Source of the DNA: Candidatus Poribacteria bacterium
GTDB taxonomy: Bacteria; Abyssobacteria; SURF-5
DNA: 28,243 bases
NCBI GenBank assembly: GCA_016215705.1
Contig: JACRIR010000171.1
Coordinates: 1 to 28,243 of the forward strand
Direction: 5' to 3'
Shown here: piece after piece, positions 12,793 through 27,381 of the stretch
Numbering within the stretch: the stretch's first letter is position 1
How the letters are laid out: every line of letters starts with the position of its first letter
Notes under the pieces: model-generated
Seen by the model: only the letters and a program-made list of their open reading frames with translations
Database searches by the model: none
What the model was told of the DNA's origin: nothing
Position numbers and translations under genes: made by a program

Positions 12793-14346
12793 TTAATCCT
12801 CGCGCAGCCTTAAGAAAACGGGCTGCCTCATGACGGTGTCTTCAGTCCAGCCGGTAAAAGAAACCTCGCAGACCAGTTTCGGCTTTAACCAGGTGACCGG
12901 GGTATTGGTTTCCGGCCTCACCCTAAACGGACATTCTTTTTGAATCAGAGGTTCCAATTGTTCGCGAATTTCCTTCAGGTCTTTTGCAGTGAATCCGCTT
13001 CCGCAATGACCGATGTAGATCAGATCGCCCCGTTTGAATACGCCTAAGACGAGAGCGCCGAAATGTCTTCTGCTCCCTCGCGGTTCTGTGAATCCTGCGA
13101 TCACGCCCTCCTGAGTAAGCCGCGTCTTCACCTTCAGCCACCGCCGACTCCTTCTCCCCATCCTGTACGCGCTTTGAGAGTGTTTGGCAATGATCCCCTC
13201 GAGCCCTTTTTCTTTGGCGGCGTTGAAAAACAGGACGCCCTCTTTCCTTACGTGATCGCTGAATCTTATTTTCGGGGCGGCCGGGAGGATTCTTTTCAGG
13301 AGTTCCTTTCTCCCGAGCAGGGGCAGATTCGTCAGATCATGTCCCTGGAAGTATAGGAGATCAAAGGCGTAGTAGAGCAAATGTCCGCTCCCGGATTTTG
13401 AGTAATCCTGCAACATCTGGAAATCAGGACTTCCCTGATCATCTACCACAACAATTTCGCCGTCCAGAACGGCCTCGAATCTGAATTCGCGCAGCGCGTC
13501 CACAATAGGAGAGAACTTCCTACTTAACGAAATCAGGTTCCGTGAATAGAGCGAAACGTTCCCGTTCGCGATTTCAGCGATTGCGCGATATCCGTCCCAT
13601 TTCACCTCAAAAATCCAATCCGGATCATCAAACGGTTCTTTGACGAGGGTCGCGAGCATCGGTTTTATGCCGTGCGGCATTGGTCTGACCGGCGCATCCT
13701 TCAGGTCTTCGCTTTCCATCGCTTCCCGAAGACGGATTTGGTTTATCTTCTTTTTTCCGGAAGACGGCGTCGGTATGCCATCGGAAACCTCCTCCAGAGT
13801 TTTGCCGGACACTACGGAACGATTCTCCTTCAGGATTTCGCCATTGCTCGCATATTGGTCCTTTTTCTTCAAGAGCAGCCACGATTTCTCGTCCTTCCCC
13901 GTTTTCACCAGCGCAAATTCACCCCGGAGTTTCTCCCCCGCAATGACAAACTTCACATTCCCTTTTCTTAATCCTTCGAGAAGAAGCCTCTCACTGTCCT
14001 TTCTGTCTCTGGCGGAGGGGTGGTGATAAAAGCCCCTGTCCCAGATGATAACGCTACCGGCGCCGTAATTGCCTTCCGGGATAACGCCCTCAAAATCCCT
14101 ATAATCAAGCGGATGATCCTCCACCATAACGGCCAGTCTTTTTGTGGAAGGATTCATCGAGGGGCCCTTCGGGACAGCCCAACTCTTGAGAACCCCTTCC
14201 ATCTCGAGCCTGAGATCATAATGGAGCCTACGGGCGGCGTGTTTTTGAATAACAAAAATGAGATGGTTTGCCTCATGGCGAAGGCCCGGCTTCGGTTCGG
14301 GCGTCTTCTCGAATTGCCGCTTGGATTCGTATTCCTTTAGTTCCAT
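12793..14346 (-). CDS. ligD: LigD 3'-phosphoesterase + ATP-dependent DNA ligase
   Basis: 517 aa. The N-terminal phosphoesterase domain (about 1-165) keeps the metal-binding and catalytic residues His36, His42, Asp44 (KHAARRLHYDLRLE) and His78 (VEDHPLDYRDFEG). A linker leads to the ligase domain, with the nucleotidyl Lys249 in EVKWDGYR, then LDGEIVVVD, LEGIIAK and RWLKVKTR, and the C-terminal OB fold. It trims and seals ends in non-homologous end joining. The polymerase domain usually fused in LigD is a separate gene immediately upstream. ATG 14346 gives the usual family start (MELKEYESKR). GTG 14355, one base after the upstream stop, is the alternative. Either way the two genes are nearly contiguous and probably coupled. 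Confidence 0.93.
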   Translation of the reverse strand: MELKEYESKRQFEKTPEPKPGLRHEANHLIFVIQKHAARRLHYDLRLEMEGVLKSWAVPKGPSMNPSTKRLAVMVEDHPLDYRDFEGVIPEGNYGAGSVIIWDRGFYHHPSARDRKDSERLLLEGLRKGNVKFVIAGEKLRGEFALVKTGKDEKSWLLLKKKDQYASNGEILKENRSVVSGKTLEEVSDGIPTPSSGKKKINQIRLREAMESEDLKDAPVRPMPHGIKPMLATLVKEPFDDPDWIFEVKWDGYRAIAEIANGNVSLYSRNLISLSRKFSPIVDALREFRFEAVLDGEIVVVDDQGSPDFQMLQDYSKSGSGHLLYYAFDLLYFQGHDLTNLPLLGRKELLKRILPAAPKIRFSDHVRKEGVLFFNAAKEKGLEGIIAKHSQSAYRMGRRSRRWLKVKTRLTQEGVIAGFTEPRGSRRHFGALVLGVFKRGDLIYIGHCGSGFTAKDLKEIREQLEPLIQKECPFRVRPETNTPVTWLKPKLVCEVSFTGWTEDTVMRQPVFLRLRED

Positions 14347-14356
14347 GTTACACACG

Positions 14357-15262
14357 TCATAGATGAGGAAGTTTCTGTTTTTTCACGGTTACCTCTCGAA
14401 AGAGGTCACCGTTCTTTTCGACTCTGTTTACGGCTTCCGAATACATGACGCAGAGCTTTTCCGGGTCGTCCTGCCCGGCTGAATTCTCCAGTTCCTCCCA
14501 TGCAAGGGGAAACGAAACAACAGGTTTTTCGCCGGCCCGCAAGGAATAGACGCATATCATCGTCTTTGAAGAATCGTTTTGAGACCAGTCGATGAATACC
14601 TTTGCTTTCCGCTCTTTCTTTGCCATTTTTGCAGTCACCATATCCGGATAATTCTTCTGCATGATTTCCGCCACGGCCCTTGAGAATCTCTTGGTATCCT
14701 CAAAGGTTGTCTCTTTGCGGTTCAAGGGCACATATAGATGGAGTCCTTTCTTGCCCGAGGTCTTCACATAGCTTGTAAGCCGTAACCGGGAGAGCAGGTC
14801 CCGAATTATCAATGCCACCCGGGCGCAGTCAAGAGTATTTGCCTCCTCGCCGGGGTCCAGATCGAAGACCATGGAGTCGGCTGTCTCAGGAGAACCGGCC
14901 TTGGCCAGAGGCACATGGAGCTCAAGAGACGCGAGGTTCTCCGCCCACATCAGCGTTTCAAGATCGTTGACCAGGCAAACCGTCATTCGCTCTCCCCCAT
15001 CCCGGCGCACCTCCGCTGTTTTCACCCAGGCCGGGCGATGAGAAGGACATCTCTTCTCGAAAAAGGAAACCTTTTCCACTCCTTCCGGATAACGCTTTAG
15101 GGTCAATGCCCGGTCTTTCAAATGAGGCAGGATGAACTTTGAAATCCGGCGGTAATACTCCAGGATATGGGCCTTCGTAAAACCGTAGGACGGATAGAGG
15201 TCCTTTTCAAGGTTCGACAAAGCGAGCCTTCGCTCCCCTATCTCGACAATTTTTCGGCTCAT
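14357..15262 (-). CDS. LigD-type polymerase/primase (NHEJ polymerase, stand-alone)
   Basis: 301 aa, an archaeo-eukaryotic primase-type polymerase. The catalytic Asp134 and Asp136 lie in MVFDLDPG, the nucleotide-binding motif is TSGKKGLHLYVPL (His175), and the third Asp is Asp225 in KVFIDWSQN. It fills gaps and adds ribonucleotides at broken ends. It covers the whole POL module of LigD and nothing more, so LigD is split into POL and PE-LIG proteins here. AGGAG lies five bases before ATG 15262. The ligase gene follows within 10 bases. Confidence 0.93.
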   Translation of the reverse strand: MSRKIVEIGERRLALSNLEKDLYPSYGFTKAHILEYYRRISKFILPHLKDRALTLKRYPEGVEKVSFFEKRCPSHRPAWVKTAEVRRDGGERMTVCLVNDLETLMWAENLASLELHVPLAKAGSPETADSMVFDLDPGEEANTLDCARVALIIRDLLSRLRLTSYVKTSGKKGLHLYVPLNRKETTFEDTKRFSRAVAEIMQKNYPDMVTAKMAKKERKAKVFIDWSQNDSSKTMICVYSLRAGEKPVVSFPLAWEELENSAGQDDPEKLCVMYSEAVNRVEKNGDLFREVTVKKQKLPHL

Positions 15263-15306
15263 CGGTTCTCCTAAATATAGAGGCGAAAGGGAAGAAACTC
15301 AAATAA

Positions 15307-15331
15307 AAGAGATTGCTTCGCTCCGCCCGCA
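15307..15331 (+). repeat. dispersed GCTTCGCT repeat, copy 2
   Basis: AAGAGATTGCTTCGCTCCGC starts this copy. The right end diverges (CCGCA in place of TCGCAATGAC). It is the closest of the three copies to the usual GATTGCTTCGCTCCGC form of the motif. Confidence 0.45.
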
Positions 15332-15380
15332 CAGAGGCGAAAGGCGAAAGGGCAAAAGCGAAAGGGAGAGAAGCCAAGAA

Positions 15381-15412
15381 AAAGAGGTTGCTTCACTCCG
15401 CTGGCAATGACC
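15381..15412 (+). repeat. dispersed GCTTCGCT...GCAATGAC repeat, copy 3
   Basis: AAAGAGGTTGCTTCACTCCG followed by CTGGCAATGACC. It has one change in the GCTTCGCT core and keeps the GCAATGAC end. It lies in the untranslated DNA between the Ku and polymerase genes. Confidence 0.45.
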
Positions 15413-15459
15413 ATAGTAGATTGAGCCTTCCCTTCACGATTAACCATGGCCCGCTGTGG

Positions 15460-16287
15460 TCAGGCGTTCTTCGCTTTCCGCATGCTCTTCTCCAGGGCCG
15501 CGACCAGATCGGCTGGACCTTCCCCTTCTTCCGCCTCTACTTCCGGCGACTCCACGGGAGTTTCTGCTTTCGCCATTTTTTTCAGAAGCTCCATGATTTT
15601 TTTCTGGCGCTCGTCCGCATATTTCCCGGGGTTAAAGTCCGCCATCATTTTCTTGATGCTTTTTTTCATACGGCTCTTGTCTTCGACATCGACCACTTCC
15701 TCCTTCGGGGAGATGTCTTCATCGGGGAGTATCTCCTGGCTGTAATGCAGCGTGTACAAAGCCAGCGCTCCTTCCCTGCTTTCAACGGCTACGAAATACT
15801 CACGCTCGCCCAGCACGAATTTTGCCAGCCCGGCTTTCTTTGTCCGATACATCACCTCCACCAGCAGTCGATAGGATTTCTCGCCCCCTTTCAAAGGAAC
15901 GAGATAGTACGGGTGATCATAGTAGATCGAATCCACTTCCTTCGTATCGATGAACTCGACAATCTCGATCGTGCGGCTCCGCTCGGGCGAAATGGATTCC
16001 AATTCCTCGTCCGTCAGCTCGATGTATTTGTCCGGCTCGATTTCGTATCCCCTGATAGTCTGTTCCGGGGGGACAATCTTTTCTCCTGCCGGACAGAACA
16101 TTTTTCTCGCGAGCGGAGAGTAGTCCTCGCTGTGAAGCATGCGAAAAGAGACGCGGCCGCTCTCGACGGCCTTAACCAACTGCACCGGAATCGCCACCAG
16201 GCTGAAACTGATCGTCCCGCTCCATATTCCGTGGGGAGATGTCTCATTCTCCCTGATTGATGACGACTTCGACTTATTCTTATTCAT
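15460..16287 (-). CDS. ku: Ku DNA end-binding protein, second in operon
   Basis: 275 aa. Prokaryotic Ku core: GIWSGTISFSLVAIPVQLVKAVE at the N-terminus, the CPAGEKIVPPEQTIRGYE block, IEIVEFID...IYYDHPYYLVP and KKAGLAKFVLGEREYF. The end is an acidic stretch (VEAEEGEG) and a basic tail (SMRKAKNA), where bacterial Ku proteins contact LigD. It forms the ring that holds broken ends. ATG 16287 is chosen because GGAGTG lies upstream. Extending to 16365 would translate the palindrome at 16312-16354. A second, diverged Ku gene lies immediately upstream. Confidence 0.93.
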   Translation of the reverse strand: MNKNKSKSSSIRENETSPHGIWSGTISFSLVAIPVQLVKAVESGRVSFRMLHSEDYSPLARKMFCPAGEKIVPPEQTIRGYEIEPDKYIELTDEELESISPERSRTIEIVEFIDTKEVDSIYYDHPYYLVPLKGGEKSYRLLVEVMYRTKKAGLAKFVLGEREYFVAVESREGALALYTLHYSQEILPDEDISPKEEVVDVEDKSRMKKSIKKMMADFNPGKYADERQKKIMELLKKMAKAETPVESPEVEAEEGEGPADLVAALEKSMRKAKNA

Positions 16288-16311
16288 GTGTGTCACTCCG
16301 CAAGTGTGGCT

Positions 16312-16354
16312 CTTAATTCGGGGACACCATGCGGCATGGTGTCCCCGAATTAAG
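16312..16354. repeat. REP-like perfect palindrome (21-bp arms)
   Basis: The arms 16312-16332 and 16334-16354 are perfectly complementary around a single central base. The core is AATTCGGGGACACCAT, a motif class repeatedly found as REP-type sequences mobilised by Y1/RAYT-type transposases in uncultured bacteria. It lies between the two Ku genes, inside the operon. No transposase is present in this window. The hairpin could cause partial termination or stabilise the upstream transcript. Confidence 0.75.
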
Positions 16355-16387
16355 GGCCGCCGCACGGTCGGATCGTGATTTCTTCAT

Positions 16388-17167
16388 TTAGGCCACTTTC
16401 TTCAGACTTGCTTCAAGGGCTTGAAGCAGCTTATCTGATGTTGTGGGCTTCAGGCGCTTGGGACGCGGAACCACAACTTGTTCTCCGCGCGCTTTCTTCT
16501 CGATCAAACGTTGCAGCTTCTTCTGGTGTTCGTCTTCGAATTTCTGCGGCTGAAAAGGAGCGGACAACTGATTGATGAGGTCGCACCCGATTTTCAGTTC
16601 CTTTTCAGACAAAGGGATTCTCTGAACTTTCTGTAGTTCGAGAGCGTTCACAGGAATCACTTCGTCGGCATACCGCAGAGTATTCAGGCGAAGAATCTTC
16701 CCGCTTGGCTGCAGCGCCCCGAGATACGACCGCTTTCGCATGGTCCACGTGCAGATACCCTCCACCTCCATCTCCTTCAACGCTCCGACAAGCGCGTTAT
16801 ATTCCTTCAATCGAGTATCCGGCTCCAGGTAGTAAACGCGATCAAAGAAGATGGGATCGATTTGGTCGGTTTCGACGAATTCGTGGACTTCGATCACCCG
16901 GCTGCTTTCAGGGACAGCCTGTTCGAGTTTTGAGGGATCGACGATGATGTATTTTCCATCCTCCACTTCAAACGCTTTGACCTGCGTTTCCGTAGGCGCC
17001 GGTTTTTTCTCATATGCGCAGACCATCTGTTGGCGCAATCTCACATGATCGCGTTTGTGAAGGAGGTGAAACTGAATCCGCTCTTCCTTGACTGCGGTAT
17101 GCAGCTTCACGGGAACATCCGTCTCCCCAAAGTGAATATATCCTTTCCACATCGTGCGTCCCGCCAT
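16388..17167 (-). CDS. ku: Ku DNA end-binding protein, first in operon
   Basis: 259 aa. Ku core: TMWKGYIHFGETDVPVKLHT at the start, FHLLHKRDHVRLRQQMVC, VIEVHEFVETDQIDPIFFD and YYLEPD, then WTMRKRSYLGAL and LRYADEVIP. The C-terminus is basic (RPKRLKPTT) with a final helix, unlike the acidic tail of the neighbouring Ku. The pair is strongly diverged, so they may form a heterodimer or act at different times. ATG 17167 has GGGAGGA upstream. It is the promoter-proximal gene of the minus-strand operon. Confidence 0.92.
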   Translation of the reverse strand: MAGRTMWKGYIHFGETDVPVKLHTAVKEERIQFHLLHKRDHVRLRQQMVCAYEKKPAPTETQVKAFEVEDGKYIIVDPSKLEQAVPESSRVIEVHEFVETDQIDPIFFDRVYYLEPDTRLKEYNALVGALKEMEVEGICTWTMRKRSYLGALQPSGKILRLNTLRYADEVIPVNALELQKVQRIPLSEKELKIGCDLINQLSAPFQPQKFEDEHQKKLQRLIEKKARGEQVVVPRPKRLKPTTSDKLLQALEASLKKVA

Positions 17168-20477: not shown

Positions 20478-21021
20478 AGCTGCGCTCATTGCGGTTTACT
20501 TCTATTTCTTCCAATCCGCAATCCAAAATCGACTCTGCCGTTCCCCTATTTAACCGCATCTCCATTTCTCCCGCGAAGCTAGCCCCTTTTCGCCTCGATG
20601 TGAGGTCTTTTGGACGTATTTATCAAAGACGGATGCCGGTACTTGACAAACAACCAATAATGTGATACAAATTCCTTCACCATTTCTTAGCTCCATTTAT
20701 CTTGGTTGTTCATTCTGCAGTCCTTATTTCGCCGGTTTTGGGAGGGGTCGTGCTCGCCGTGATTCAATCCACCAACCCCGTAGTACTCCCCTTGCGTCCT
20801 CGGAACTTTAGGGCGACGATATCCTTTCGTGAGGCGTCCCGAGAGGAGAATTGGCGATATATCTCGTGCTAGGTGGCGGAGAATCGTTTCTACCGATGCG
20901 TCGACTAGATGGGAAGAGCGGGTTGACTTGTTTTTTCGCGGGAAAGGGGGACAAAGAGTCCTATCTAATGTGAAACTGTCCAGGTCAAAGGGCGGCGAGG
21001 TGGAGCACAAGGAGGGTTGCA
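20478..21021. other. long leader/spacer before the giant gene
   Basis: 544 bases without a supported gene. The left part contains CAATCC words (20511-20530) like those near 280-298. A promoter-like pair lies at 20643-20671, leaving an apparent untranslated leader of about 340 bases. I see no recognisable riboswitch or strong hairpin in it. The last bases, AAGGAGGG (21009-21016), form a strong ribosome site for the gene at 21022. Confidence 0.5.
20643..20671 (+). promoter_or_regulatory. sigma70-type promoter upstream of the giant gene
   Basis: A perfect TTGACA (20643-20648) and TACAAA (20666-20671, four of six) are separated by 17 bases in locally AT-rich DNA. This would produce a leader of about 340 bases, unusually long, before ATG 21022. 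Confidence 0.4.
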
Positions 21022-24000
21022 ATGACCGAGATCAGAATACCGGATGGGCTCAGCGAAATTGGATATGACAAGGACTTCATCTCTGCCATCGAGAACATTG
21101 CGCCCCAGTTGTATGCGTGCTGGCAAGAGTTATATCCTTTTCACAATCTTTGGAGCATACATACAAACGCCATCCTTAAGCATATTGCAGAGTTTCTGAA
21201 AATCGCAAACTCGGCGGAACCGACAGATGTCTCGAAAAAAGCGACGGGGCTTCAAATCACAGAACCTGAATGCACGATAATCATTGCGACTGCCATCCTT
21301 CACGACGTCGGGAAAGCTCTTCCCTCGCTCTTGCCTGAGTTTCGAGAGAAGGAATCAACTGCGGCCAGACTTGAGGAAGTCCATCACATTATTGCCTTCT
21401 GTCTCTTGGATCACTTGTTCAATCCGAGACTGAAAGAAAACTTCGCTGCCTACAGCAAAATCTTTCCCGTAAAGGGAGACCGTAGCGCAAAAGAAAGCTT
21501 CATTACCCTAGCTAATCAAACATGGTCACAGAAAGAGGAATGGCAGCACTATTTTCGTTGCATTGCATGGTTGTCGCTCTGGCATAAAGAGGTTACTGAC
21601 GAGCAATTGCAGATTTTCAAGGACGTTCTTCGCGAGCATCTTGATCCCCTTGATCCCGGCGAAGCGCCGACCGATCCTGAAAAACCAAGGGATATTAACA
21701 GATCTCTTAGAAAATTCAAGAATTCAGAGAGTTGTCCCGATTTGAGAATGATCGAACAATGGTTACAGGTGGAGGGGAAGGTCAAGACGTATGGGCTTCC
21801 GTCTGACCGGTTCAAGATTCTCTCGGCGTTACTGCAACTTGGTGATAGGCTAGACATATCCGAAAACAGACTCCTAGAAAAATGGTTCCACTTGGCCGTG
21901 TTTCTTGATGATATCGATGTTCCCGAATGGCGTGAGGGTTTTCCGCATCCCGACGCCATGGCTCGGTGGTATCAATTCCACTACACAAGAGAACCGCGAA
22001 TGGAAATGGACAAATCGCGAAATAAGCTTGTTATCACGTTGCCATATTGTTACCCAGAAAACCTCAAGGATGACTTCCCATATTTTAGATATCAGGCTGA
22101 AAAGGATTTTGAGGATTTGCAGATTCTTTCAATTTTGGAAAAAGCAATTCAGGAAGAAAAATGCGATGAAGAATATAGGGTCGTTATTCAGCGAACCGAG
22201 AATAAGGCCACAGACCAAGATTATGATCAGCAGGAACAAGCGGACAAGGAAAGTCCGCCAAGACGAATCCGGGGGATAGATCGACGCTATGAACGAATGC
22301 TATATTGTCTGCGGAAAGTCTGTGAGTCATGCACTGCGAATGACACTGCCGAAGCCGAATCCATGCGGGAATTTGTAAACAGAAAAATCGACACATATGT
22401 TGATGATCCCCAAATTGCTGGGAGAGAGCACTTTCCATGTAAGAAAAAGGACAGAAGTAATGTGGAGCCATGGAAAAGTTGTCTGCTCCTCGGGCTTGTC
22501 GAGCGAACGTTTGCTCAAGCCAGCCAATCGCCCATCTGTGAGGATTGGAAGGATGCCCCTGTAAGGAGTCTGCGTCATGTCGGCCGAGCCATTTGCCCCC
22601 GGTCTACCGATGCTCCGAGAACAAAAGACGAGGAAAGGGTTAATAACCTGCTTAATAAGATCGCAGATGATGTAAAATCCGGACGAGCGGTGCTTGGTTT
22701 GTCTCGCAGGGCAGTGAAGGGACTCGACTCATGGAAGAACGAGGTGGCAATTCAACGCGGTAGACTTGCAGCCGGGGACCTGTTCTATCCGCCCGACAGA
22801 GAAGGCAGGCAGATTCCAGTAAGCCTTGATGTTACCTTCATCCTTAACCTTTTTCGAAACCAGCCCCACCAGTCGCTCACAATCAAGGATATCGTCAGCT
22901 TGTCCGGCCTCGACCAGGGGAGAAGTCGCATGCACTGCGGACGGCTGGAGCATAAAGGTTTTCTATTGTTCGACCCGCAACGCGAGACATACAGGCTCAA
23001 TCGGAACAGGTATCTGGAAGTAGAAAGGATTCTTAAACCTTTTGACGGACGGCGATCAGAACTAGTGGCTAAGGTGCGCGACATAGAGCGACTGGGTAAA
23101 CCGCTTGCTCTCTATTCTGATCTCGATGAGAAGACGCTGGACACGGGTCTCGAAGGACTAAATGAGATTCTCTCCCCATTCGAGGAAGATACGCGCTGGG
23201 AGAAGAAACAAAAGGGATTGCCTCTTCGAAAATCGATCCTCATCGTCGGTCCTCCCGGCTCGGGCAAAACTACGCTTGCGCTTGAGATCGTGCGGCAGGT
23301 AAGGAGGAGAAGACTCCCAGAGGAAACTGCTCTCTATCTCACCTTCGAAGAAGATATTCACAAGTTGGCGGAAAACTGCAAGCCTTTCAGATGGAAACTT
23401 GAGGATATGCTGCGGTGTGTGCGCTCTCTGAGCTTGCTGCAGAATGAAACCTACCAGAAAAATTCGGAGGAGTTTCTGAACCGTTTTCTTGACATTCTGG
23501 ATGAATTCTCCCCTGACATTGTGGCTTTGGACAATCTGGACTGCTTCCTCTGCCTCGTTCCTGCAGAGGAAAGAAGGAAGGTCTTCAATAGACTGCTTCG
23601 AATTTTCACGGTAAGAGGAATTACCTCTCTGCTGCTCGGCGAGAGCCTCCTTAACAGTAGCGCATTCGAGACTTATGACGTCGATGGAGTAGTCAATCTC
23701 GGCTACAAACAGGGACGGAGATGGCTTGAGATTACCAAGATGCTTGGACGCGAATTCGCTGGAGGCCGCCATTCGTTTCGGATTCGCGGAGATTCCGAGA
23801 AATCCACGATAGAGAAGAAGCAAGATGCCCCAAGAGAACGAGAAGAGCCAATTATTCAGGTTTTTCCGAACATTCAGATGCACATTGCGAAGGCCGAGAG
23901 AGAGAAACTTTTGCTGAAACCCGCAGAATCACCGCCCGATGAACCCATACTCACCGGAATTGAGGGACTGGATGGGCTTTTACCATTTTCTCCCGACAAG

Positions 24001-27000
24001 AAAGGGCTGGAACAAGGTGAGATTGCGCTGGTCCTCGGGAGTCCGGGAGCCGGAAAGACCTTACTCGGTCTCCACTTTCTGAAGGCTACGATGGACTCTA
24101 AAGACGAGAAGGCTGAGACGAACCCTAAGGATCGCATCCTGTGGGTCTCGTTTGACAGTGACAAGGACGGCCTTAAGCTGGCGACACGGAGCTTTGGAGA
24201 TGGGGCGGGATTCAACAAGCTAATAAAAGGCATGAAGACAAAGGCGGACAAGGACTTCGAAGTCGCCGGAGCCAAGTTTATCTACTATCCTCCCGCCCAA
24301 CTCGAACCCGACGAGCTTGTCAATGAGTTGCTAAGGGCATGCAAACCTAAAAACGGAGAAAAACGGGGACTGGATAGGTTCGTCCTCGACAGCGTCACCG
24401 ACCTCGAGCAGGTTTTCTCCACAGAGATGGGTTTCAAGTCGTTTATGACCTCGCTTGTGCAACTCTTGAGGGAACGCAGAGTCACGACCATGTTTCTCTA
24501 CCGGACAAGAGGTTTCTTTGGAAAAACCGAGGACATTGGCCGCGTCCTCTCCTCGGTGGTTGACATAATCATTTGTCTCAAAGTTCTTGAGATAGGCAAC
24601 GCGATACGGAAAGGGCTCTTCTTGCTCAAGGTGCGCGGTCGGGAGCACAAAAGCATGCTTCACTCGGTCGATTTCGACCAAGACAAGGGCATGATTGTTT
24701 TGGACCGCGGTTGGACCATGAGCGGACTCATCAGCGGGGAAGCTGGCGAGATCAGGGAACCCCGAGTATCTGTAAAGCTATTCTACGAGAATCCGAATGA
24801 AGGCCGTATTAACCAACTTATCGTGGGTGAGTATAGCAGAAGGTTTAGAGGCGGGCCAACATCTTTTGTGGAAGTTGTAAAACCGCAAATATACTCAGAA
24901 TTCTGGAGTTTTCGTGGCGCATCAGGCGCCGGCCATTCGAATGTGCGCGTACTTTCTCTTTGCGATTACTGGGCGACTTTATTCTACGACCAGCGTAAGT
25001 TGTACGACATGTCGGAATATGTGAGCCCGGAAACACAAAGACTTGTCCGTAAAGACGAATTCTTGAGGCGTTGCGCCAGTTTTGAGGATCACAAGTTCAA
25101 GATATTCGCACTCCCGAACTACGTTGATATCGGTGTCTTGGCCTTTGATGAAAGGATCATAGAGTTAACAGAATTTTGGCGCATTTTCGGACTTGGCGAC
25201 AAGCCTTCGGGCGACGACTCTGTCGAGGCTGCAAGACAAAGCCTCACCAGACTGACGTGGAACAAGTTGCAGGACATAAGTGACGAAGACCTGAAAACGC
25301 TTCTTCGCGAGAAGTCCGACACAGACGGAGGAGCATGCACTGATTCCACGAACGCGAGCAAAGACCATGTCAGACGGAAAGATGCAGAGAAGGAAGACCG
25401 CCCCCCCACGTACTTATTCGCCATGCCCGCGCTTGCGGATACACCTGCATTCGTCTCTTTTTTCCTTGAGCTTTACTGGTCTTTTGGAGGAGTGATTCTC
25501 GATTTCAGGCCCGTTTTTGACGCATACGCCGGAGACTGGCTTGCCTGGTACGAGAGTGTCCCAGGAGAAGTGGAGTCCTTCTCATGTGCGGCTTCGATGC
25601 CCCCGCCATTGTACGAGTTGCCTGGTCAGAAGGAGGGCGAACAGAAAGAGAATACAGGCAGAGCAAGGAAAGAAGACTCATCTGCACCTAATGCGCCGAA
25701 GGATGAAGAGAAGGATGAAAAGAAGAAACCAAGTCCGCGAATGCAGTTCCTGGCCCAGATTCTTCTTCTTATTCCAGAACGAATCCTCAACGGCGCTATC
25801 CAACACATGAATGAGTGCGAGCCCGACTTTGTTGGTGACATTCGCGCTTATGGAGAGGAGCTGTTAGGCCAGATTCTGGGACGGCAGGGTGAAGTTAAAT
25901 CCGTGAGTGCATATACGGGAAAGACGGCCAAAATGTTCTTCGATAAGTACAAGGATAAGAAGAAAGAATCCGTTCCCCAGAAACATGCTGTCCTCGTTTT
26001 CATCGAGCGGTTGACAAAGTGCCTGGCTGAGGACGCAATCTGGAAGAGTACACACGAAGATAATCTGCGAAAGGCAGTAGAGAAGGCGCAACCGCTGATC
26101 AATAGCATCCTTGCATGTTTCTACAATCCACCGAAAGGGGAAGAAGCACTCAGGGCCGATAAGGATCAGCAGACACTCCTATTGATCCTTTTCAGCGTTG
26201 TGAGCCGCGTCGTTACAAACCGAGAACGCTATCAGCGTCTCCTCAAATGGTGCTCTGACAAACGGGACACTTCCAAACACCCTAGTCAGACAACCGAGAA
26301 GCCAGCAGAGCAACCCGGCGTGTCAACCGGAGGATTGCGGGAGCATTTCAGGAGCCTTGTGAGCATTAATAGAGAGAATCCTTTTGCCAGGCGGACATTT
26401 GAGTTTCTTTTCAACCTAGTCCGCAGAGAAATCGCTCCCAATCCGAATAGGGGCGACCTTAGCAAGCAGGCATATCTCGCCCGAAAATGGTCAGGCGACC
26501 TTGCCCCGAGACCCAAGAAAGAGCCGTGGGAAAAGGAAGAGGGGCTTCGAGCCGCTTTTCAAGGAAGCGCACCAATGGATCAAGGAAAAGAAGACAGTGT
26601 TCGAATCGTTATTGATGAAACCGCACAAGCTTCTATTAAAGCAACCGTAGAGGAGCAAGATCCGGAGCGAACGCACTACCGAATTGCTCCCTTGCCGTCT
26701 TATGACCGAGGCAGAATCACCTCTAATAACCCACTGGGTGGAAAGTGGAGCTACGCTGTCCTTGGTTGTTGGAGTCTCGGGATAGCGTGGCCGGCGGTAT
26801 CGCCCGAGATAGGATGGATATTCATTGACGCCCTCACAGAAGATCATTATGTAGAACTGAGAGCGCGGAAAGGTTGGGGACTTCCGGCCAAGACTCCTCT
26901 GTACAGCCGAACGAGTATTCGCGAAGCTCAGCCGGACATTTACCGCACCTTTGATTCAGAGGGCAAGAGGGGAGGAATAGTACACTTGTATCAGATTGCT

Positions 27001-27381
27001 TCCCAGGATAAACCCCTTGGCCATGCAGCGGAAGTGGGTAAAGAAGATTTCTACCGCACGAGAGAACGTTCTGCAATTCCTTACTACTATAAGATCGAGG
27101 AAATCCTGAGCGAGGAGCTCAAACGATTTTTCGATGATTCCTTCTTCAAGGTACTCAGAAAAGCATGGGACGAGAAGAGGAAAGAAGACGGAAAGAAAGG
27201 GGAATTGAGAAAAGAGGATAACGAAGATGATAATCAGTGGAACACTCTTATTGGTGATATGCTCGATCGAATCAACATCGGAATAACGAATTGTCTCATA
27301 GAGCACCCTAGGAGGAAGGATGCGGCCTTATCAAAACAGTCCGGCCAAGTCTTACAACAGGAGGGTCTCAAGATAGACTAG
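21022..27381 (+). CDS. 2119-aa HD hydrolase - winged helix - dual KaiC-like ATPase - solute-binding-protein-like fusion
   Basis: No signal peptide or clear membrane segment, so probably cytoplasmic. Domains in order: an HD phosphohydrolase (about 40-290) with His47, His94-Asp95 (ILHDVGKA), His121/122, His188 and Asp275/Asp278 (LGDRLDIS); a region rich in Cys and charge (400-590); a winged helix (about 600-662); KaiC/RecA-like domain 1 (about 705-925) with Walker A GPPGSGKTT (743-751), TFEED (776-777 the paired Glu) and VALDNLD; KaiC-like domain 2 (about 972-1230) with GSPGAGKTL (1006-1014), FVLDSVTD and LLKVRGREH; and a C-terminal part resembling an ABC-type solute-binding protein, with ALPNYVDIGVLAF (1363-1375), LELYWSFGG (1482-1490), GGKWSYAVLG (1906-1915) and IPYYYKIEEILSEEL (2019-2033), interrupted by a charged helical insertion (about 1535-1880). 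AAGGAGGG lies five bases before the start. Its function is unknown to me. Sensor-ATPase-effector logic is inference. Confidence 0.85.
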   Translation: MTEIRIPDGLSEIGYDKDFISAIENIAPQLYACWQELYPFHNLWSIHTNAILKHIAEFLKIANSAEPTDVSKKATGLQITEPECTIIIATAILHDVGKALPSLLPEFREKESTAARLEEVHHIIAFCLLDHLFNPRLKENFAAYSKIFPVKGDRSAKESFITLANQTWSQKEEWQHYFRCIAWLSLWHKEVTDEQLQIFKDVLREHLDPLDPGEAPTDPEKPRDINRSLRKFKNSESCPDLRMIEQWLQVEGKVKTYGLPSDRFKILSALLQLGDRLDISENRLLEKWFHLAVFLDDIDVPEWREGFPHPDAMARWYQFHYTREPRMEMDKSRNKLVITLPYCYPENLKDDFPYFRYQAEKDFEDLQILSILEKAIQEEKCDEEYRVVIQRTENKATDQDYDQQEQADKESPPRRIRGIDRRYERMLYCLRKVCESCTANDTAEAESMREFVNRKIDTYVDDPQIAGREHFPCKKKDRSNVEPWKSCLLLGLVERTFAQASQSPICEDWKDAPVRSLRHVGRAICPRSTDAPRTKDEERVNNLLNKIADDVKSGRAVLGLSRRAVKGLDSWKNEVAIQRGRLAAGDLFYPPDREGRQIPVSLDVTFILNLFRNQPHQSLTIKDIVSLSGLDQGRSRMHCGRLEHKGFLLFDPQRETYRLNRNRYLEVERILKPFDGRRSELVAKVRDIERLGKPLALYSDLDEKTLDTGLEGLNEILSPFEEDTRWEKKQKGLPLRKSILIVGPPGSGKTTLALEIVRQVRRRRLPEETALYLTFEEDIHKLAENCKPFRWKLEDMLRCVRSLSLLQNETYQKNSEEFLNRFLDILDEFSPDIVALDNLDCFLCLVPAEERRKVFNRLLRIFTVRGITSLLLGESLLNSSAFETYDVDGVVNLGYKQGRRWLEITKMLGREFAGGRHSFRIRGDSEKSTIEKKQDAPREREEPIIQVFPNIQMHIAKAEREKLLLKPAESPPDEPILTGIEGLDGLLPFSPDKKGLEQGEIALVLGSPGAGKTLLGLHFLKATMDSKDEKAETNPKDRILWVSFDSDKDGLKLATRSFGDGAGFNKLIKGMKTKADKDFEVAGAKFIYYPPAQLEPDELVNELLRACKPKNGEKRGLDRFVLDSVTDLEQVFSTEMGFKSFMTSLVQLLRERRVTTMFLYRTRGFFGKTEDIGRVLSSVVDIIICLKVLEIGNAIRKGLFLLKVRGREHKSMLHSVDFDQDKGMIVLDRGWTMSGLISGEAGEIREPRVSVKLFYENPNEGRINQLIVGEYSRRFRGGPTSFVEVVKPQIYSEFWSFRGASGAGHSNVRVLSLCDYWATLFYDQRKLYDMSEYVSPETQRLVRKDEFLRRCASFEDHKFKIFALPNYVDIGVLAFDERIIELTEFWRIFGLGDKPSGDDSVEAARQSLTRLTWNKLQDISDEDLKTLLREKSDTDGGACTDSTNASKDHVRRKDAEKEDRPPTYLFAMPALADTPAFVSFFLELYWSFGGVILDFRPVFDAYAGDWLAWYESVPGEVESFSCAASMPPPLYELPGQKEGEQKENTGRARKEDSSAPNAPKDEEKDEKKKPSPRMQFLAQILLLIPERILNGAIQHMNECEPDFVGDIRAYGEELLGQILGRQGEVKSVSAYTGKTAKMFFDKYKDKKKESVPQKHAVLVFIERLTKCLAEDAIWKSTHEDNLRKAVEKAQPLINSILACFYNPPKGEEALRADKDQQTLLLILFSVVSRVVTNRERYQRLLKWCSDKRDTSKHPSQTTEKPAEQPGVSTGGLREHFRSLVSINRENPFARRTFEFLFNLVRREIAPNPNRGDLSKQAYLARKWSGDLAPRPKKEPWEKEEGLRAAFQGSAPMDQGKEDSVRIVIDETAQASIKATVEEQDPERTHYRIAPLPSYDRGRITSNNPLGGKWSYAVLGCWSLGIAWPAVSPEIGWIFIDALTEDHYVELRARKGWGLPAKTPLYSRTSIREAQPDIYRTFDSEGKRGGIVHLYQIASQDKPLGHAAEVGKEDFYRTRERSAIPYYYKIEEILSEELKRFFDDSFFKVLRKAWDEKRKEDGKKGELRKEDNEDDNQWNTLIGDMLDRINIGITNCLIEHPRRKDAALSKQSGQVLQQEGLKID

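Follow-up and report, generated by a model that had tools for sequence, protein, structure and literature searches.

Solute-binding proteins (SBPs) such as the trehalose/maltose-binding protein 1eu8 and MalE3 (6dtq) are exported receptors of transporters. SgrR-type regulators of E. coli carry an SBP-like sensor in the cytosol; their sensor belongs to another SBP family than the one considered here, and they have neither a KaiC nor an HD domain. Tandem KaiC domains are found in the double-domain KaiC ATPases, which include circadian KaiC and its relatives. HD-CE phosphohydrolase domains score above the family cut-off in 9 of 192 sampled genomes, and the HD-CE proteins that were read (including L093, L091, and L097) are either stand-alone or fused to an Hsp90-like ATPase, NB-ARC, or CARF module; L097:673-3204 encodes an 844-aa protein with a Csm6-like CARF domain (PF09651) and HD-CE, which is matched by the PADLOC CARF_HD models. 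No KaiC-SBP or HD-KaiC-SBP protein is described in the literature searched, whose coverage leaves out many journals.

The window considered here, the whole stretch of 28,243 nucleotides that was analyzed, is one entire contig (C99) of a 5.47-Mb draft genome, from a phylum represented by three genomes in the sample. It carries a gene for a protein of 2119 aa, with the following parts:

21010..21016, forward strand: ribosome-binding site AGGAGGG, 5 bases 5' of the ATG (read directly)
21022..27381, forward strand: single open reading frame of 2119 aa (P0001), from the ORF listing, with a coding G+C pattern throughout
21160..22029, forward strand: HD-CE-like phosphohydrolase domain, residues 47-336, with H54, H94-D95, H121/H122, H188, and D275 (PF24391, alignment, hhalign)
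22252..22833, forward strand: region of unknown kind, residues 411-604, without a match in family and structure searches
22834..23016, forward strand: possible winged helix, residues 605-665 (HTH_IclR, weak)
23140..23787, forward strand: KaiC domain 1, residues 707-922, with Walker A at 743-750 and TFEE at 774-777 (PF06745, 81.9 bits; motifs)
23953..24705, forward strand: KaiC domain 2, residues 978-1228, with Walker A at 1006-1013 and FDSD where the Glu pair would stand (PF06745, 83.6 bits; motifs)
24769..25506, forward strand: first part of the SBP fold, residues 1250-1495 (profile segments 1305-1377 and 1478-1494)
25567..26331, forward strand: residues 1516-1770, a large insertion of the SBP fold that contains charged linkers and separates colinear SBP segments
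26344..27246, forward strand: residues 1775-2075, the second part of the SBP fold, which has smaller insertions (hhalign 1884-2064; profile segments 1907-1974 and 2010-2037)

The initial annotation, made from the sequence, had described these modules as a single chain, and this is borne out by the open frame of 2119 codons, the ribosome-binding site, and G+C that is coding-like (position 1 above position 2) in every 200-codon block. The domain order that it gave (HD-CE-like phosphohydrolase, possible winged helix, two KaiC domains, SBP fold) likewise agrees with Pfam, motifs, and profile comparison.

The N-terminal domain matches PF24391 (HD-CE) with an E value of 2.6e-5 and 24.5 bits; since this lies below the Pfam cut-off of 27, the domain is called HD-CE-like here, a fair description from its sequence that claims no membership of the family. 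The HD-CE assignment suggested in the annotation is thus upheld by hhalign against five HD-CE proteins (91.4%; best of 100 shuffles 17.8%) and by the metal-binding residues, but not by the Pfam score. Alignment to HD-CE proteins places the metal-binding His/Asp set at H54, H94-D95, H188, and D275. The annotated H94-D95 and D275 are therefore present, but the first metal-ligand histidine aligns at H54, not at H47, and H188 is added; one of H121/H122, which the aligner left unplaced, is a probable further metal ligand. For the annotated winged helix the one indication is a weak match to HTH_IclR (E = 0.16, about residues 607-651), and it is kept as possible. Matches to the N-terminal part in other genomes proved, where read, to be unrelated proteins.

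No full-length relative of the 2119-aa protein was found in the scans, which take in a portion of the public sequences, and the two other sampled genomes of its phylum hold no relative. Scans of plasmids, viral contigs, and genome contigs confirmed neither a full-length nor a partial relative; these scans demand exact short peptides, so that the absence is weak evidence. Viral-contig scans for relatives of KaiC-SBP, SBP, and HD-CE gave no match.

The gene stands alone on its contig. An MFS transporter gene lies upstream across a gap of about 545 bases, and about 650 bases downstream begins an ORF truncated by the contig end (28031-28243), which reads like a PIN/VapC toxin and has no Pfam match. 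The contig also encodes Ku, parts of a LigD-type ligase, two PEP-synthase-like proteins, and an ankyrin protein; at 12793-17167 two genes share the LigD functions and adjoin two consecutive Ku genes. This gene content looks unlike that of a defence island. This bears on an anti-phage role, in which the SBP and its insertion would detect a product of phage or stress, with nucleotide depletion or nucleic-acid cleavage left to the HD domain. Such a role would suit a protein of rare and patchy occurrence whose HD-CE counterparts are fused to NB-ARC, Hsp90-like, and CARF modules, but it is quite unlikely: no defence genes occur among the contig genes examined, PADLOC matches only the KaiC/P-loop part, and the phage and plasmid-type collections searched gave no relatives. 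The defence function that the annotation had raised thus finds nothing for it in the neighborhood.

Both KaiC domains score above the curated PF06745 cut-off of 26.6, and of the two Walker A/B pairs reported earlier the Walker A motifs, GPPGSGKT (743) and GSPGAGKT (1006), are indeed present and spaced by 263 residues. The TFEE of domain 1 holds what is presumably the catalytic Glu pair of KaiC proteins, which is gone from domain 2. The NCBIfam model for circadian KaiC is not reached (56.3 bits against a cut-off of 546). The nSTAND3 model scores 33.0 bits, above its own cut-off, with its best stretch confined to residues 735-764 around Walker A, and KaiC scores 154.9; an NTPase domain of NB-ARC/NACHT type, the mark of STAND/NLR proteins, was not found in the 2119 aa. 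The rest of the genome contains one further KaiC match, a weak one over 57 of 231 positions, so that only these two KaiC domains are full.

Of all the assignments, that of the C-terminal part to an SBP carries the greatest risk, and it was given the most tests. No Pfam or NCBIfam SBP model matches residues 1236-2119, and Pfam also gives none after removal of the insertions, which amount to about 400 aa. The de-inserted sequence matches a single chain, MalE3 (E = 5.6e-4), among 177,635 PDB sequences; its insertion boundaries were picked by eye, and evidence independent of the cutting was therefore sought. When the uncut C-terminal part is compared with 386 genomes, ordinary SBPs of 439-486 aa match repeatedly at the same place. 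The weak matches in other genomes number 21; eight or more belong to SBPs or KaiC-SBP fusions, and in seven of these the match lies at the same place; the best weak match (in G158) is an ATPase-type protein and no SBP. A profile that includes SBPs fetched by the query gives 35.4 bits (best of 2000 shuffles 6.4), a test that is partly circular because the query itself fetched some members. A profile of 13 SBPs that came from a different query scores 27.0 bits (best of 2000 shuffles 5.8) and aligns the four colinear segments listed above; its independence is good but imperfect, because the fetching query consisted of two KaiC-SBP proteins first noticed through the window protein. Comparison of the region by hhalign with eight SBPs, seven of them the query's own matches and the eighth a fusion reached through it, gives 96.7%, against at most 1.7% for 100 shuffles and 0.2% for the reversed sequence; the profile of these eight SBPs is in turn nearest to 1eu8 and MalE3. 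A profile of 12 SBPs from other, more distant subfamilies does not match the window protein, and the relation is therefore to the trehalose/maltose-like group. Two AlphaFold models have low pLDDT (33.7 for the SBP region with four sequences, and 39.2) because homologues are lacking. With the colinear segments and the shuffled and reversed controls, the SBP-like blocks claimed in the annotation are confirmed at the level of sequence: residues 1250-2075 show the signature of a type 1 SBP fold with large insertions.

This SBP fold has no export signal. The protein contains no hydrophobic segment of membrane-span length and none at the N-terminus; the best 19-aa Kyte-Doolittle mean is 1.7, at residue 1175 within KaiC domain 2, in accord with the absence of a signal peptide noted at the outset. 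The SBP region also sits C-terminal to domains of cytosolic type. Three motifs present in all eight of the nearest SBPs compared, RxWP, QGxx[YF]E, and LxC[NT], are absent from the window SBP. Their conservation suggests importance for binding, and the protein may therefore bind another ligand, bind in an altered way, or have lost binding. If binding were lost, the SBP and its insertion could be a scaffold or remnant, an arm of a KaiC/HD enzyme to which proteins dock; the missing motifs and the amount of inserted sequence point that way, but the rest of the fold signature is retained over the whole length and in order, and this explanation is rather improbable.

Five KaiC-SBP-AraC fusions occur in two other phyla, in G130, G267 (MAG UBP4_UBA6127), G162, G411, and G412 (genes at L059:7123-9522, L056:6928-9183, L102:754-3030, L130:4256-6523, and L131:5401-7878). 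Three came from the 386 genomes, two of them from the only two sampled genomes of one phylum, and two more from 40 genomes of the G162 phylum. Pfam finds SBP and AraC in all four fusions scanned and adds KaiC for those of G130 and G267; the KaiC part of the G162 and G412 proteins comes from sequence reading, and its Walker A is altered. The fusion genes adjoin carbohydrate, pseudopilin-like, or secreted-protein genes: near those of G162, G267, G411, and G412 lie a pseudopilin-like gene and a beta-helix-like one, and Pfam identifies a pseudopilin motif and Exo_endo_phos among the G412 neighbors. These proteins may form a family, so far undescribed, of regulators that respond to ligands in the cytosol. 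The window SBP is no closer to them than to ordinary SBPs, and a common origin of the fusion is therefore not established; one weak match to a fusion spans the KaiC-SBP junction (query 1145-1381) and gives a faint hint of shared origin. SBP frames of 760-900 aa in G130 and G267, considered as further candidates, read as SBP-permease fusions and not as sensors. Such one-chain fusions, identified by reading, occur both in the source genome and in G130/G267 (L129:2-2221, from the source genome, and L081, L082, L083, and L084). Contig C40 of the source genome encodes a 1047-aa SBP with a catalytic domain of glycoside hydrolase family 123 fused to it (L128:3011-6151).

Every other KaiC-SBP fusion encountered terminates in an AraC DNA-binding domain and neighbors genes of the kinds listed above. 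By analogy the window protein could be a one-component transcription regulator whose output is the winged-helix-like stretch at 605-665 and whose sensor for small molecules is the SBP, the HD domain having an accessory role or being inactive. That winged-helix match is weak, however, the HD residues look complete, and the solitary gene has no evident DNA target or co-regulated neighbor; a regulator of this type is unlikely.

The preferred reading, tentative and a little short of probable, is a cytosolic sensor in which the SBP would use the KaiC domains as a switch to control an HD and/or winged-helix (DNA-binding) output. The SBP, presumably two-lobed, would close on a small molecule or partner protein, and the closed form would act on the adjoining KaiC domain 2. 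KaiC domain 1 probably hydrolyzes ATP and domain 2 perhaps only binds it; the pair would change its assembly state and thereby switch the N-terminal HD hydrolase and/or winged helix. The intracellular ligand sensor proposed in the initial annotation fits the anatomy of internal SBP, KaiC, and HD domains, and the idea that an SBP serves a KaiC ATPase as its cytosolic sensor gains support from the existence of KaiC-SBP-AraC fusions elsewhere; control of the HD domain as effector, oligomerization of KaiC in this protein, and a sugar or peptide as ligand are suppositions. If the preferred reading is true, a fold known chiefly from the outside receptors of sugar transporters now serves inside the cell as a receptor coupled to KaiC ATPases and has two outputs, an HD hydrolase here and an AraC regulator in other phyla. 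This would be a new type of sensor for signaling ATPases and a testable input for KaiC-like proteins.

Compared with described systems, the window protein is an unusual architecture with partial precedent and no established system. Like the KaiC-SBP-AraC proteins, it has a KaiC-like domain directly before the SBP (SBP_bac_1/8 in those proteins) and no evident export signal; those proteins differ in having one KaiC-like domain (with a degenerate Walker A in G162) and a C-terminal AraC domain, for which the window protein gives no match, and in lacking HD and the large insertion. As in L093, L091, and L097, an HD phosphohydrolase is joined to an NTPase and/or sensor module, but these proteins use other NTPases and sensors and score well above the HD-CE cut-off, whereas the window protein falls below it. 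It has the colinear SBP fold signature in common with 1eu8 and MalE3, but its SBP is internal, carries insertions, and lacks the three conserved motifs. Tandem KaiC domains with TFEE in domain 1 are shared with double-domain KaiC ATPases; in contrast to circadian KaiC, the Glu pair is missing from domain 2, both termini carry large additions, and scores are far under the model cut-offs. The plan of effector, NTPase switch, and sensor resembles that of NLR/STAND proteins, with KaiC replacing NB-ARC and the SBP replacing the repeat sensor. That it represents an NLR-like class of single-chain switch, in which a transporter SBP fold captured as a cytosolic receptor drives KaiC ATPases that switch an HD hydrolase, is conceivable though doubtful.
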